This document shows positions 12,422 through 46,303 of a stretch of 49,965 nucleotides of DNA, one piece after another (the stretch's first letter is position 1; every line of letters starts with the position of its first letter). Position numbers and translations under genes: made by a program. The notes under the pieces are model-generated. The model was given only the letters and a program-made list of their open reading frames with translations. It ran no database searches and had not been told where the DNA came from. Source of the DNA: Candidatus Gastranaerophilales bacterium (GTDB lineage: Bacteria > Cyanobacteriota > Vampirovibrionia > Gastranaerophilales > Gastranaerophilaceae); assembly GCA_944323615.1 (NCBI GenBank), contig CALUTG010000007.1:1-49965 (forward strand), read 5' to 3'.

Positions 12422-12508
12422 TTTCTACCTTCCCGTGGAGTGTTAACGGAATGCGGGGAGGGTTGGGTTTCTTAACGAACGTTGTGAGTTTAGAAACCCG
12501 GGAGGGGG
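12422..12508. repeat. Inverted-repeat element family F, copy 1
   Basis: GGGTTGGGTTTCTTAACGAA...GTTTAGAAACCCGGGAGGGGG can fold on itself through GGGTTTCT/AGAAACCC. The reverse complement of the same sequence occurs at 42987-43054. This copy carries about 19 extra bases near its left end (12433-12452). Confidence 0.85.
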
Positions 12509-12531
12509 TATACTCAAGCAACCCCAATCGA

Positions 12532-12622
12532 CACCTCACCCCACCCCTCTCCTCTTAGGAGAGGGAGCAATAAAAGCCACGATTTACTACTCACTGCTCA
12601 CAACTCACGATTAATCACTCAT
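12532..12622. repeat. Family A palindrome plus short CACT units
   Basis: CACCTCACCCC, the arms CCCCTCTCCT / AGGAGAGGGAG (12532-12567), then irregular ACTACTCACTGCTCACAACTC units. The whole gap 12417-12997 holds only repeats and tRNA-Gly. Confidence 0.85.
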
Positions 12623-12632
12623 TATTGGTAAG

Positions 12633-12704
12633 ATCCTGAAAGGGGTAAATAAAGCTAGTAGTCTAAACGTTAAGCTGTTCCGCCTGATGTAAAAAGTTCA
12701 GGAT
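12633..12704. repeat. Family D inverted repeat, interrupted copy
   Basis: ATCCTGAA (12633-12640) and TTCAGGAT (12697-12704) flank 56 nt. At 39318-39338 the same arms flank only TCAAG. Both are followed by the related sequence AACAATATTATTTA / GACAAGATTATTTA, so this copy appears to carry an insertion in the loop. Confidence 0.7.
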
Positions 12705-12720
12705 AACAATATTATTTACC

Positions 12721-12800
12721 TACTCACTATTCACTAGGTACCAACACCTCACCCCTACCCTCTCCTGTTAGGAGAGGGAGATTCTTCATCACTTAGTCAT
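12721..12800. repeat. Family A palindrome flanked by CACTATT/CACTTAGT units
   Basis: CACTATTCACTAG, then CACCTCACCCC and the palindrome TCTCCTGTTAGGAGA (12745-12780), then CATCACTTAGTCAT. Confidence 0.85.
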
Positions 12801-16939: not shown

Positions 16940-17147
16940 TTTGTGAACAGTGAATTGTGAGTCGGAGTGATTAAGTGATTAAGTTCAACCCCTCACCCCT
17001 GCCCTGTCTTGAATTATTCGGGGTGTTGGAAAGTTCCCAGCTTCCCAACACCTTACGGGTTCCGCTTGCGTGAATGAGTTCCTCCGGAACTCTCGCTCCC
17101 GCACGCTCCACCCTGCCGAAAATTCGCTCTCCTGTAAGGAGAGGGAG
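16940..17147. repeat. CACTTAAT-type units plus long element C, copy 1
   Basis: GTGATTAAGTGATTAAG units lead into CCCTCACCCCTGCCC, then an inserted block (TGTCTTGAATTATTCGGGG ... CCGAAAATTCG). The palindrome end CTCTCCTGTAAGGAGAG closes it (about 16989-17147). It is more diverged than the two copies at 39455 and 45775. The remainder of 16885-17278 is the groES upstream region. Confidence 0.85.
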
Positions 17148-17248
17148 AAACTCAGGCTTTTTTCGGTAGAAAAAGAAAGAACAAACTAAAACTCAATTAT
17201 TAAAATTTCCTTAATATTTTTCGTTATTTTTAAAATCTATTATATAAA

Positions 17249-21959: not shown

Positions 21960-22013
21960 GACTGATTATTAGTCTTAGTCACTTAATCACTCAGTCACTT
22001 AGTCACTGAATAA
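21960..22013. repeat. CACTTAGT/CACTTAAT unit array between atpD and atpC
   Basis: About five octamer-like units (TTAGTCACTTAATCACTCAG, then TCACTTAGTCACTGAATAAC) without the GC-rich palindrome. This copy sits inside an operon rather than between transcription units. Confidence 0.8.
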
Positions 22014-38364: not shown

Positions 38365-38426
38365 ATGAAAAGGAGAAGGCATTTCTCAATCACTATTCAC
38401 TAGTCCCAATATCTTACCCCAGCCTG

Positions 38427-38753
38427 CTAATCTGATTTTTGAACAACCAGTATACCGTCTTCCATGTCAATATCTATAAAATCTTTTTCAGGATTCACAC
38501 TCAATAATGCAAGCATAGGCTGCGACAAGATTAGTCCGTAACCACCTCCCCTTTTCATAAGATTTTTAGTTAAAAGATTCTTATTATTATCCAAATATTT
38601 TTGAACGTATAACTTCTTTTTCTCAAATAATAAAGTTACACGGCAATCATCTTTCGTAATTCCCATAAGTTCAGTAATAGTTTTGTTTATATACAAAAAC
38701 CAAGAATTGCCGTTGGTTTTTAATTGCTTTTTTGAATATTGTGAATTTTGCAT
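38427..38753 (-). CDS. Tandem AbrB/MazE-like DNA-binding protein
   Basis: 108 aa made of two similar swapped-hairpin units. Unit 1 is NGNSWFLYINKTITELMGIT (residues 15-34) plus VTLLFEKKKLYVQK. Unit 2 is GGGYGLILSQPMLALLSVNP plus IDIDMEDGILVVQK. Both show the G-(N/G)-S/Y-hydrophobic-I-P-like pattern of SpoVT-AbrB/MazE domains. A single chain with two halves could act as a built-in dimer. There is no ribosome site; perfect inverted repeats overlap and precede its start, so self-repression is likely. No toxin is next to it; the divergent gene at 38864 is the only candidate partner. Confidence 0.7.
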   Translation of the reverse strand: MQNSQYSKKQLKTNGNSWFLYINKTITELMGITKDDCRVTLLFEKKKLYVQKYLDNNKNLLTKNLMKRGGGYGLILSQPMLALLSVNPEKDFIDIDMEDGILVVQKSD

Positions 38754-38800
38754 ATATTATGCATACATGGTACATTGTTTATGCAATAATAAATATTGCA
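38749..38800. promoter_or_regulatory. Inverted repeats between AbrB-like and divergent gene
   Basis: TGCATA-TAT-TATGCA (38749-38763) covers the AbrB-like start codon, and TGCAATA-ATAAA-TATTGCA (38782-38800) is centred 35 nt away. Both share TGCA-T-rich half sites and lie in the shared control region. Confidence 0.55.
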
Positions 38801-38863
38801 CAACATAGGCATATTGTATGTATTAATAGCTATAAATTAATAAAGAAGTGAAAGGAAAGTATT

Positions 38864-39211
38864 ATGCCAATTAACGAATTTAAACGAGATAAGAAAAGAT
38901 TGCTTAAAACTCTGGAAAAAACAATAGAACTTTCTAAAACAATGGCTGTTTATATGCTTAATGAACAAGAGATAAAAAGACGACAGGGCGGAAAAGATAA
39001 AGAATTGGATATTATTGAAAATAATCTTAATCGTCTTTGTATTTATGCGTTTGCACTTCGGGATATACTTAATGACGCTAAATTTATTACCTGTTTATCA
39101 GATTTCTCTTACAAAAAACTGCAAGATTTAGCATTTAACAGCGAGATTAATATTCATCTTTCACGCGAAGAAGATTTTGTACATTATTGGGAAAAAACAC
39201 ACCGAAAATAA
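38864..39211 (+). CDS. Hypothetical helical protein
   Basis: 115 aa, basic, all-helical in appearance (KRDKKRLLKTLEKTIELSKT, then NNLNRLCIYAFALRDILNDA). GAAAGGAAAG precedes the ATG. It is divergent from the AbrB-like regulator and shares its operator region, so it is the first candidate for regulation by it. No toxin family is recognised. Confidence 0.6.
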   Translation: MPINEFKRDKKRLLKTLEKTIELSKTMAVYMLNEQEIKRRQGGKDKELDIIENNLNRLCIYAFALRDILNDAKFITCLSDFSYKKLQDLAFNSEINIHLSREEDFVHYWEKTHRK

Positions 39212-39245
39212 GTGGATTGGAGTTTCAGTTCGACAGAAGCTAAAC

Positions 39246-39345
39246 TGTCATTCCGGCCTCGAGCTGGAATCTGTTTTACTCGTGAATAGTGAATAGTGAG
39301 TCGTAATTATTAGGAAGATCCTGAATCAAGTTCAGGATGACAAGA
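39246..39345. repeat. Inverted repeats E and D with heptamer units
   Basis: ATTCCGGC-CTCGA-GCTGGAAT (39250-39270) and ATCCTGAA-TCAAG-TTCAGGAT (39318-39338) are two short palindromes. GTGAATAGTGAATAGTGAG units lie between them. The gap 39212-39786 holds only repeats. Confidence 0.8.
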
Positions 39346-39354
39346 TTATTTATT

Positions 39355-39446
39355 GATTCACGATTCACGAATTAGTCACCTCACCCCAACCCTCTCCTCA
39401 AGGAGAGGGAGTCACTCAGTCACTATTCACTATTCACTATTCACGA
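39355..39446. repeat. Family A palindrome with CACTATT array
   Basis: CACCTCACCCC and CCCTCTCCTCAAGGAGAGGG (39377-39411), followed by four CACTATT-type heptamers. Confidence 0.85.
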
Positions 39447-39454
39447 CTTTCCAA

Positions 39455-39607
39455 CACCTCACCCCAGCCCTGTCTTGAATTATTCGGGGCGTCGGAAAGT
39501 TCTCAGCTTCCCGACACCTTACGGGTTCCGCTTGCGGGAATGAGTTCCTTCGGAACTCCCGCTTCGCTCCACCCTACCGAAAATTCGCTCTCCTATTAGG
39601 AGAGGGA
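39455..39607. repeat. Long element C, copy 2 (153 bp)
   Basis: Family A palindrome whose left arm is split by about 118 bp (TGTCTTGAATTATTCGGGGC ... ACCGAAAATTCG). Inside are hairpins GTCGGAA/TTCCCGAC and GAGTTCC-TTC-GGAACTC. It matches 45775-45927 at 151 of 153 positions. Confidence 0.92.
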
Positions 39608-39637
39608 AAAGTTTACCAGCACGTATTGCTTGATATT

Positions 39638-39707
39638 CTCGGGAATTGTTCACGAAACGATAGCGGGAGGCGAAGCCGAGAGCGTGTTTGAGTGAATAAT
39701 TCCCGAG
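39638..39707. repeat. 70-bp stem-loop element
   Basis: CTCGGGAATTGTTCAC (39638-39653) and GTGAATAATTCCCGAG (39692-39707) pair over 16 bp with one G-T. The loop is 38 nt and GC-rich (GCGGGAGGCGAAGCC), reminiscent of the inner part of element C. Confidence 0.8.
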
Positions 39708-39720
39708 GGATAAAACTCAA

Positions 39721-39782
39721 CACCTCACCCCAACCCTCTCCTCTTAGGAGAGGGAGTCACTAGTCACTAGCCACCAACTCAC
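39721..39782. repeat. Family A palindrome with CACTAGT units
   Basis: CACCTCACCCC and CCCTCTCCTCTTAGGAGAGGG (39721-39756), followed by GTCACTAGTCACTAGCCACC. Confidence 0.85.
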
Positions 39783-41154: not shown

Positions 41155-42948
41155 ATGAATAAGAAAAATATTAGAAATATAGCAATAATAGCGCACGTTG
41201 ACCACGGGAAAACCACTCTGGTTGACTGTATGTTGAAACAAAGCGGTGCATTCAGAGAAAACCAGCATGTTCAGGAACGTGTATTAGACAGCAACGATTT
41301 GGAAAGGGAAAGAGGAATTACTATTCTTTCCAAGAATATTTCCATTAACTATAAAGGCACTAAAATTAATGTTGTAGACACTCCGGGACACGCAGATTTC
41401 GGCGGAGAAGTCGAACGGGTGCTCGGAATGGTAGATGGTGCGCTTTTAATCGTTGATGCTGCAGAAGGACCTATGCCTCAGACAAGATTTGTACTTTCAA
41501 AAGCACTTGAGCTGGGCATAAGAATTATTGTTGTAATAAACAAAATTGATAAACCTGCTGCAGATCCGGACAAAACACTTGATAAGGTTTTTGACTTATT
41601 TACGGAACTTACAGACAGAGAAGATTTAATTGATTTTCCGTATATTTATGCAAGCTCGCTTCAGGGCTTTGCAATCAAGCACCTTGATGATGAAAGAAAA
41701 GATGTAAGTCCTCTTCTGGACTGTATTTTGGAAAATATTCAAGAGCCGTCAGGTAATGTAAATAAACCTTTCCAGTTCAGAGCTACTACTCTGGATTATA
41801 ACGACTATGTCGGACGAATTGTAATCGGACGTATTGCAAACGGAAAAGTATATTCTCAAGAGCAGGTTGCATGGGTTAAAGCTGACGGAAGTATTGAAAG
41901 AGGCAAAATTACAAAGCTTTTCGGGTTCAAAGACCTTGGCAGAGTTGAAATTGAATCGGCAGAAGCAGGTGATATTGTAGGTATTGCAGGGTTCTCTGAA
42001 ATCCACATCGGCGAAACTCTCTGTGATGTTAATAATATTAATCCTCTTCCTCTAATCAAAGTTGATGAACCTACGCTGCAGATGAATTTTTCCGTAAACG
42101 ACAGTCCTTTTGCAGGTCAGGAAGGGAAGTTTGTAACTTCAAGACAATTAAGAAAGCGCCTTTTTGATGAGCTTGAAAAGAACGTAAGTTTAAGGGTTGA
42201 AGAAACTGACTCTACAGACTGCTTTAAAGTAAGCGGCAGAGGCGAACTTCACCTTGGTATATTGATTGAAACAATGCGCCGTGAAGGGTATGAATTCCAG
42301 GTATCAAAACCGGAAGTTATTTATAAAGAGATTGACGGAGTTCAGTGCGAGCCGTTTGAAAACCTTGTTATTGATGTTCCGGAAGAGTACGCCGGTTCCG
42401 CAATTGACCGCCTTTCCGGAAGAAAAGCCGTTATGCTGGAAATGCAGAGTGCAAACGGAAGAACTAATCTTAAGTTCTCTATCCCTGCAAGAGGGCTTAT
42501 CGGATTCAGAACTGAATTTATCCGTATGACAAGGGGGGAAGGTATTATGTACCATACATTTGACGAGTACAAACCTTATGCCGGTGATATTCCGAAACAA
42601 AGAAGCGGCTCAATCCTTGCGCACGAACAAGGGGAAGCTATCCCTTATGCGCTTGCCCAGTTTGAAGACAGGGGTGTATTCTTTATTACTCCGAAAACAA
42701 AAGTTTACAGAGGTATGATTATCGGTGAAGGCAACCGCCCTCAGGATATTGTGGTTAATATCTGCAAAACAAAAAAACTAACCAATATGAGAAGCGCAAC
42801 TGCTGATGTAATGGTTACTCTGCAGGCTCATAAAGAACTTTCGCTTGAAGACTGCCTTGAATATATCGGGGATGATGAGCTTGTCGAAATTACTCCTCAA
42901 AATATCAGAATGCGTAAACTGGATTTGGTTAAGTTCAAAAGTATTTAA
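41155..42948 (+). CDS. typA: Ribosome-binding GTPase TypA/BipA
   Basis: 597-aa translational GTPase acting in ribosome assembly and stress adaptation. G motifs: [38 protein letters not shown]. Domains II and III match EF-G ([20 protein letters not shown]) and the BipA-specific C-terminal domain has [20 protein letters not shown] and [11 protein letters not shown]. The length is standard. ACGGA lies upstream of the ATG. It is followed by a repeat-filled gap. Confidence 0.98.
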
Positions 42949-43078
42949 CTCGTGAGTTGGTGACTAGTGAGTAGTGATTAAGTGAACCCCCTCCCGGGTT
43001 TCTAAGCTCACAAAGTTCGTTAAGAAACCCAACCCTCCCCGTAGGGAGGTAGAAATTGTGTGACTGAGTGATTGAGAA
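42949..43078. repeat. CACT-type units and inverted-repeat family F, copy 2
   Basis: GTGACTAGTGAGTAGTGATTAAGTGA units, written here in pieces GTGACTAGTGAG and TAGTGATTAAGTG, flank a block at 42987-43054 (CCCTCCCGGGTTTCTAAGC ... AACCCTCCCCGTAGGGAGG). The block is the reverse complement of 12422-12508 without its 19-bp extra segment. Confidence 0.85.
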
Positions 43079-43079
43079 G

Positions 43080-43115
43080 CTCCCTCTCCTTACAGGAGAG
43101 GGTTGGGGTGAGGTG
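43080..43115. repeat. Family A palindrome, opposite orientation
   Basis: CTCCCTCTCCTTACAGGAG then AGGGTTGGGGTGAGGTG. This is the only copy here with the CACCTCACCCC tail on the right, so the element occurs in both orientations. Confidence 0.88.
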
Positions 43116-43151
43116 TCAATTATTCGTGAATGGTGATCTGTATAAAATTCT

Positions 43152-43187
43152 TTCATATTCTGTCCCCGCTATAGTATAATTACATTA
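43152..43187 (+). promoter_or_regulatory. recG promoter with leaderless geometry
   Basis: TTCATA (43152-43157), 17 nt, TATAAT (43175-43180), six nt (TACATT) and ATG 43187. There is no ribosome site. Confidence 0.65.
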
Positions 43188-45559: not shown

Positions 45560-45589
45560 TAAAAAGGCTGTAAGTCGGGTTTTACTCTA

Positions 45590-46187
45590 TGTCCTTTCCC
45601 TTGAGGGAGGAGCGGAGTCTTTGATTTCGAATAGAAGAGGGAGCCACTCAGTCACTTAATCACTAGTCACCAACTCACTAATTCCCAACACCTCACCCCA
45701 CCCCTCTCCTGTTAGGAGAGGGAGTTTCTTAGTCACTATTCACTATTCACTATTCACTATTCACTAATTCCCAACACCTCACCCCACCCCTGTCTTGAAT
45801 TATTCGGGGCGTCGGAAAGTTCTCAGCTTCCCGACACCTTACGGGTTCCGCTTGCGGGAATGAGTTCCTTCGGAACTCCCGCTTCGCTCCACCCTACCGA
45901 AAATTCGCTCTCCTGTTAGGAGAGGGAGCTTCTTAGTCACTATTCACTATTCACTATTCACTAGTCACTAGTCACAACTCACTAATTCCCAACACCTCAC
46001 CCCACCCCTCTCCTGTTAGGAGAGGGCATCCTTAATCACTTAGTCACTTAATCACTTAATCACTATTCACTATTCACTAGTCACTAGTCACAACTCACTA
46101 ATTCCCGACACCTCACCCCAACCCTCTCCTGTTAGGAGAGGGAGCTTCTTAGTCACTATTCACTAGTCACTAGTCACTAGTCACGAG
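45590..46187. repeat. Composite repeat array of about 600 bp
   Basis: Alternating family A palindromes (45689-45724, 45993-46026, 46109-46144), one element C (45775-45927) and runs of CACTATT, CACTAGT and CACTTAAT units. The linker AATTCCCAACACCTCACCCC or a close variant recurs at the start of each block. A decayed copy begins the array near 45590. No ORF of note is inside. It fills almost the whole gap 45560-46303 between recG and accD. Confidence 0.92.
45775..45927. repeat. Long element C, copy 3 (153 bp)
   Basis: It differs from 39455-39607 at only two positions (AGCCC/ACCCC and CTATT/CTGTT), although the copies are 6.3 kb apart. Confidence 0.92.
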
Positions 46188-46273
46188 TTGTAACAATTTT
46201 ATGAAAAACTATACCAAACTGATATTTTTGGTGTAAAATTAGTTTATGCCAATCGCATTTTAATTAGGGAAAG

Positions 46274-46294
46274 GGACGGCCGGGGTTTGGCCGA
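46274..46294 (+). promoter_or_regulatory. GC-rich hairpin in the accD leader
   Basis: CGGCC-GGGGTTT-GGCCG lies just before the accD start, an unusually GC-rich stem in AT-rich DNA. No ribosome site is seen at accD, so the leader may matter for control; the role is unknown. Confidence 0.4.
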
Positions 46295-46303
46295 ATGTAA
46301 AAT

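Follow-up and report, generated by a model that had tools for sequence, protein, structure and literature searches.

Between recG and accD of a Gastranaerophilales (Melainabacteria) genome lies an array in which a 32-nt triplex-type palindromic motif is coupled, in fixed order and orientation, to tracts of TCACTAN heptamers, and composites of these parts lie at both ends of a derived inversion of about 6 kb. Unit differences from the closest congener end within heptamer tracts, and the heptamer pattern is largely confined to one genus. We consider it probable that these non-coding arrays are mosaic repeats whose units are exchanged through recombination or slippage between heptamer tracts, and that they serve as sites of rearrangement.

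The host is a metagenome-assembled genome (MAG), a 1.93-Mb draft in 90 contigs with 96% completeness, and belongs to a group of non-photosynthetic relatives of cyanobacteria; most of its accD relatives come from Candidatus Gastranaerophilales MAGs. The window analysed is a stretch of 49,965 nucleotides on contig 7; genome statistics were drawn from stretches totalling 641 kb of the 1.93 Mb.

A four-unit repeat array lies in the recG–accD spacer

The array lies in the interval between the end of recG (45559) and the start of accD (46304) and consists of four head-to-tail units of 86–218 nt, each passing from a linker through a palindrome into oriented TCACTAN hepta- or octamers (Table 1), which confirms the same-order blocks described in a first-pass annotation made from the sequence alone. 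The linkers, AATTCCC[A/G]ACACCTCACCCC, start at 45680, 45766, 45984 and 46100 (the last copy reads CCCGACACC), and the palindromes, CTCTCCTGTTAGGAGAG, at 45704, 45908, 46008 and 46124. Runs of TCACTAT, TCACTAG or TCACTTAA lie 3′ of the palindromes; the octamers preceding the heptamers of unit 3 are TCACTTAA and TCACTTAG. The long form of the unit, with about 120 nt extra between linker and palindrome, recurs near 17001–17143 and 39470–39604.

Table 1 Repeat features of the recG–accD spacer and of other sites in the window
Position	Strand	Feature	Basis
12526..12786	+	Two further palindrome units, heptamer remnants attached	
16940..17153	+	Palindrome unit in the long form; groES-like gene downstream	
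21979..22009	+	Octamer run standing alone, outward from a stop codon	
39279..39762	.	Other inversion end; second composite, with palindromes 39392, 39588, 39736 and inverted heptamer arms 39279-39299 / 39412-39447	
42949..43113	-	Composite between ORF 41155-42948 and recG, opposite orientation	
45560..46303	.	recG–accD spacer with array; one inversion end relative to closest congener	Synteny vs G054
45652..45681	+	Lead-in octamer/heptamer run TCACTTAA-TCACTAG-TCACCAAC-TCAC	
45680..45765	+	Unit 1: linker, triplex-type palindrome, four TCACTAT heptamers	
45691..45722	-	Unit 1 intrastrand triplex motif CCCTCTCC-TAACA-GGAGAGGG-GTG-GGGTGAGG, 0 mismatches	
45766..45983	+	Unit 2 (long form): ~120-nt insert separating linker from palindrome 45908-45924; heptamers 45937-45983	
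45984..46099	+	Unit 3: linker, palindrome 46008-46024, octamers before heptamers 46036-46099	
45995..46026	-	Unit 3 triplex motif	
46100..46187	+	Unit 4: linker, palindrome 46124-46140, heptamers 46153-46187	
46111..46142	-	Unit 4 triplex motif	

Several other identities for the array were rejected. Each reading frame contains 7–27 stop codons and every frame is closed, ruling out a coding array, as the first reading had also held. The heptamers of this spacer have a single orientation, ruling out a two-armed array. The 37–47 kb interval gave no Rfam match at gathering level, only weak chance matches, and an intrinsic terminator was set aside since no T run was seen by eye after the palindrome and PIT motifs are reported to lack terminator activity (PMC4666352). 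No orthologous array was found at accD among the first 40 accD relatives checked; the nearest of them have another gene order, or repeats there that are few and degenerate.

The same parts are dispersed. Chance does not account for their numbers: across the whole genome the palindrome gave 58 matches (≤1 mismatch) against 0 for a reversed control, and 81 matches to the heptamer pattern compare with 4 to its control. The palindrome copies lie on many contigs, which settles whether copies exist outside the window, a check that the first-pass annotation had proposed. Its further claim that the parts occupy most large gaps of the window holds for the largest, those above 380 nt (4 of 5); above 200 nt the figure is 5 of 10. 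Although tandem repeats are error-prone in a draft MAG, it is extremely unlikely that the array is an artefact of short-read metagenome assembly: copies dispersed over different contigs and matching modules in independently assembled relatives speak against this, and unique flanks lie on either side of the array. Other palindromes were also seen in the window. A second long palindrome, GGGTTTCTTAACGAACTTTGTGAGCTTAGAAACCC, with GGGAGGG/CCCTCCC at its flanks, occurs twice (12460–12510 and 42975–43050), and palindromes of the GATCCTGAATCAAGTTCAGGATGACA and TCATTCCGGCCTCGAGCTGGAATC types lie at 12630–12720 and 39240–39340; at other genomic sites these types are part of such mosaics too.

Linker and palindrome form one triplex motif

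The CCTCACCCC linker together with CCCTCTCC-loop-GGAGAGGG is a motif already described in the literature, the G/C-rich intrastrand triplex motif (TM/PIT; PMC4666352). Holder et al. (2015) defined this motif (TM, earlier named PIT element) and tied it to instability; they examined triplex formation in vitro by CD/NMR, and stable triplex was not found in vivo (PMC4666352). The published rule specifies three stems of ≥6 nt, allowed triads, loops of 1–6 nt and ≤1 mismatch from 7 nt (PMC4666352), and our scan was stricter, with 8-nt stems and 0 mismatches. The strict motif, 32 nt long, occurred at 8 window sites (loops 4–5 and 3 nt) against 0 in five dinucleotide shuffles, and 38 times in a further 592 kb of the same genome; one minus-strand example reads CCCTCTCC-TAACA-GGAGAGGG-TTG-GGGTGAGG. 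Linker and palindrome therefore constitute a single motif, and the linker, which had been described initially as a separate part, is not an entity apart from the palindrome. The window palindromes lie in spacers, intergenic and multi-copy as for TM/PIT.

Searching a phylum sample recovered the full motif in 37 of 292 genomes, some from classes other than that of the host, with 37 copies in the host genome. When a 64-nt query spanning the linker end, palindrome and heptamers was used, Methylobacterium, Azospirillum and Klebsiella matched only its first ~40 nt, without the heptamers, and the same part had a weaker match in 243 E. coli genomes. The statement in the first-pass annotation that palindromes of the CCTCACCCC/CCTCTCC type occur in other Gram-negative bacteria was sound, and this type is the published motif (PMC4666352).

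The array shares with TM/PIT the order CCCTCTCC-loop-GGAGAGGG-spacer-GGGTGAGG, an intergenic location and high copy number; TM/PIT is also tied to variable loci and is known from cyanobacteria too (PMC4666352). Unlike TM/PIT, about half of the motifs here have heptamer tracts alongside in one orientation, motifs and tracts are repeated together in tandem in the window, and a derived inversion ends at motif–heptamer composites. Nearly the same palindrome, CCCTCTCCC..GGGAGAGGG, is described in Enterobacter sp. 638, where about 100 copies, many of them in twos or threes at the 3′ ends of genes, are presumed to act as terminators; heptamers are not mentioned alongside in the portion of that report considered here (PMC2869309). 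In another Gastranaerophilales genome (G207, contig 3, 1827–2002), the triplex motif is present four times in tandem with a 48-nt period.

Palindromes and heptamers are coupled in one orientation

Among 44 orientable palindromes of the host genome, 21 had TCAC heptamers on their G side at a distance of up to 70 nt and none had the reversed arrangement, compared with 2.4% and 0.9% of control spacer windows for the two orientations, tandem units of one spacer being counted separately. Of nine motif copies read in other genomes, one had a heptamer neighbour, and on this small comparison the coupling looks lineage-specific, in line with the first impression that it was special here. Heptamer arrays also occur in genomes in which these palindromes are few or absent (G038, G051 and G062), indicating that coupling is not needed for heptamer spread. 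Each part on its own belongs to a known class of repeat; what is new is their coupling and their orientation rules.

Composites lie at the ends of a derived inversion

The closest genome by accD, G054 (93% over accD), revealed that the recG–accD array is an inversion breakpoint, which the first-pass annotation had missed. Relative to G054 contig L282, the window is direct at 34.86–38.36 kb, inverted at 45.56–39.64 kb and direct again at 46.12–48.13 kb. The inverted ~6 kb segment (window ~39.64–45.56 kb) carries recG, its window-side ends are the composites at 39279–39762 and 45651–46187, and collinearity resumes at 46122, within unit 4. The G054 junctions comprise a 58-nt degenerate remnant (site A) and one palindrome with TCACGAC-type heptamers. 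Reduction of site A to this remnant means that the exact crossover cannot be placed; as the module beside the 39588 palindrome is itself dispersed, we can at most infer a crossover inside that palindrome. The regulator–accD order of G054 is common to G040 and G041, which places the origin of the inversion on the host genome's own lineage.

Whole units also differed between the two genomes in a sister-locus comparison of the kind proposed at first reading. At L156:3808–4009, a 180-nt long-form unit is missing from G054, with the junction within ATTCAC heptamers, and the spacer at 42949–43186 measures 238 nt in the host and 451 nt in G054, the ~213 nt more including two further palindromes between octamer/heptamer tracts. 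The evidence for turnover relative to G054 thus consists of one inversion and two clean unit differences, the gain or loss polarity of the latter being unsettled. Spacers with repeats had changed in 3 of 4 cases and spacers without in 5 of 35 (Fisher's test, hand-calculated, p about 0.02), in a small sample whose repeat class includes heptamers. Also missing from G054 is a ~0.9-kb segment at 38390–39280 containing two small ORFs. Heptamers run close to each of its ends (at 38391 and 39279), and the segment may represent a gene cassette of recent insertion.

Near-identical dispersed composites, the empty site in G054 for the 180-nt unit of L156, heptamers in inverted pairs and one operon in which three spacers have a common core between inverted heptamers could instead indicate MITE-like non-autonomous elements, with heptamer tracts and palindromes as their ends, moved by some transposase. 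We consider this improbable, as constant element ends and a clean target-site duplication are both absent, modules swap partners freely and the sole clean junction, inside heptamers, is equally readable as a deletion.

A RAYT origin of the array palindromes is not supported

Another candidate for mobilization was a RAYT (Y1 tyrosine transposase), which the first-pass annotation had suggested looking for and which would spread the palindromes as REP elements. REP/BIME sequences and RAYTs (PMC3733652, PMC2817692) share with the array short intergenic palindromes in tandem mosaics with other modules, and RAYT-like genes (PF01797) are present in 36 of 65 congeners. However, PF01797 (Y1_Tnp) had no match in the 96%-complete host genome, although a repeat-flanked gene could be missing from a 90-contig draft. 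Of 26 RAYT loci read, about half had GTTGGG..CCCAAC palindromes, several with GTAG, and one had a CTCTCC palindrome nearby. Nor was palindrome count linked to RAYT presence: G033, G053 and G055 have 11–24 palindromes yet no RAYT match. No GTAG or CGTC tag was evident beside the dispersed palindrome copies inspected; the array palindromes differ from REP/RAYT systems in having neither a recognised tag nor a cognate RAYT. Spread by a RAYT is thus very unlikely. The genus RAYTs look matched to GTTGGG..CCCAAC, a palindrome other than that of the array and similar to the REP of a REP/RAYT system. At RAYT loci L193, L195 and L283, the RAYT-like genes are accompanied by GTAGGTTGGGGTTTCTACCCCAAC or GTTGGGCATACCTGCCCAAC palindromes, with which they apparently constitute a separate, intact REP/RAYT system.

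Heptamers follow strict orientation rules across the genus

The heptamer unit, 7 nt and in some cases 8, has six mostly fixed positions and one variable position; in 641 kb we counted TCACTAT 44 times, TCACTAG 25, TCACTAC 14 and TCACTAA 6, plus octamers and rarer forms. Within the order, 38 of 383 genomes carry the exact array pattern, and most of these belong to this genus, where 27 of 65 congeners have it. Of 39 placed arrays in the host genome, 37 lie outside ORFs. In four genomes, TAGTGAN read outward rather than in reverse in 22:0 arrays ≤30 nt from a stop codon and outward rather than inward in 16:4 arrays within 60 nt before start codons, with ORFs called by length alone; a few arrays contain the stop codon themselves, a position that alone favours the outward orientation. 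Opposed arrays <200 nt apart in nine genomes were in the hairpin-forming order TAGTGAN..TCACTAN 23 times and in the opposite order 0 times, inverted pairs that the first-pass annotation had missed, and their spacers fold better than mononucleotide shuffles (z from −2.9 to −11.6). In G032 a flagellar gene run has its spacers bordered by inverted heptamers, and in G033 the majority of such spacers are bordered likewise. In G033 (L171:1300–2560), a ~70-nt core between inverted heptamer arms is common to three spacers of one flagellar run.

The heptamers resemble, by description rather than by unit sequence, the seven-base STRR repeats of filamentous cyanobacteria, which can form hairpins between genes, with a proposed influence on transcript stability or coupling (PMC2670836); heptamer repeats are also known from the P6b region of the cyanobacterial trnL intron (PMC4476775). 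Common to both are seven-base tandem intergenic units, often hairpin-capable, in a related class of bacteria. STRR-type hairpin potential is present at inverted pairs in the genus but not in the recG–accD array, which has a single orientation. Unlike STRR (PMC2670836, PMC4476775), the unit here is TCACTAN/TAGTGAN, is concentrated in one Gastranaerophilales genus, reads outward after stop codons and in this species is coupled to the triplex motif.

These patterns could reflect selection at the RNA level, with arrays forming mRNA stem-loops at gene ends that would act in stability, processing or translational coupling, or back up stop codons through TAG-TGA-N, the window array being one-armed or decayed. 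The outward bias at gene ends, the hairpin order and folding of opposed arrays, the framing of flagellar spacers and the roles suggested for STRR hairpins (PMC2670836) all favour such a function. Conversely, the single-orientation window array makes a long heptamer hairpin impossible, the exact pattern is missing from 38 of 65 congeners, and the orientation counts are not independent, because related genomes share ancestry and events, as do the G032 and G033 spacers. For the inverted pairs elsewhere in the genus, a role as RNA hairpins competes seriously with the mosaic-repeat reading, but it leaves the one-armed window array unexplained; as an account of the arrays overall it seems possible but unlikely.

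A model for turnover of the composites

We therefore return to the reading of mosaic repeats that turn over between heptamer tracts. The composite combines a 32-nt hairpin motif of the TM/PIT type, predicted to be capable of intrastrand triplex formation, in fixed order with STRR-like TCACTAN tracts that flank it in direct orientation. If a triplex or hairpin forms in vivo, it may stall or break replication, and repair or slippage could then exploit the short homologies of the flanking tracts. Units would thereby be gained, lost or tandemly multiplied, and distant copies would occasionally recombine, which could explain inversions like that of the ~6 kb recG segment.

A bolder reading, which we think doubtful, is that one gut-bacterial lineage actively generates the TAGTGAN heptamers as an element of locked orientation, through a dedicated process, with triplex hairpins as the partner that spreads the composites and reshapes gene order. 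Were it true, six fixed bases and one free base would be laid down in the outward direction from the gene ends that border a spacer on either side, supplying tandem stop codons in all frames plus an mRNA hairpin.

In a non-photosynthetic cyanobacterial relative, the composite unites triplex motifs with cyanobacterial-type heptamers, both of them repeat classes that are poorly understood, and its presence at both ends of a recent inversion offers a direct case. The strict rules observed (22:0 at stop codons, 23:0 for opposed pairs and 21:0 at palindromes) make models of the origin and role of STRR-like repeats testable across dense MAG sets.
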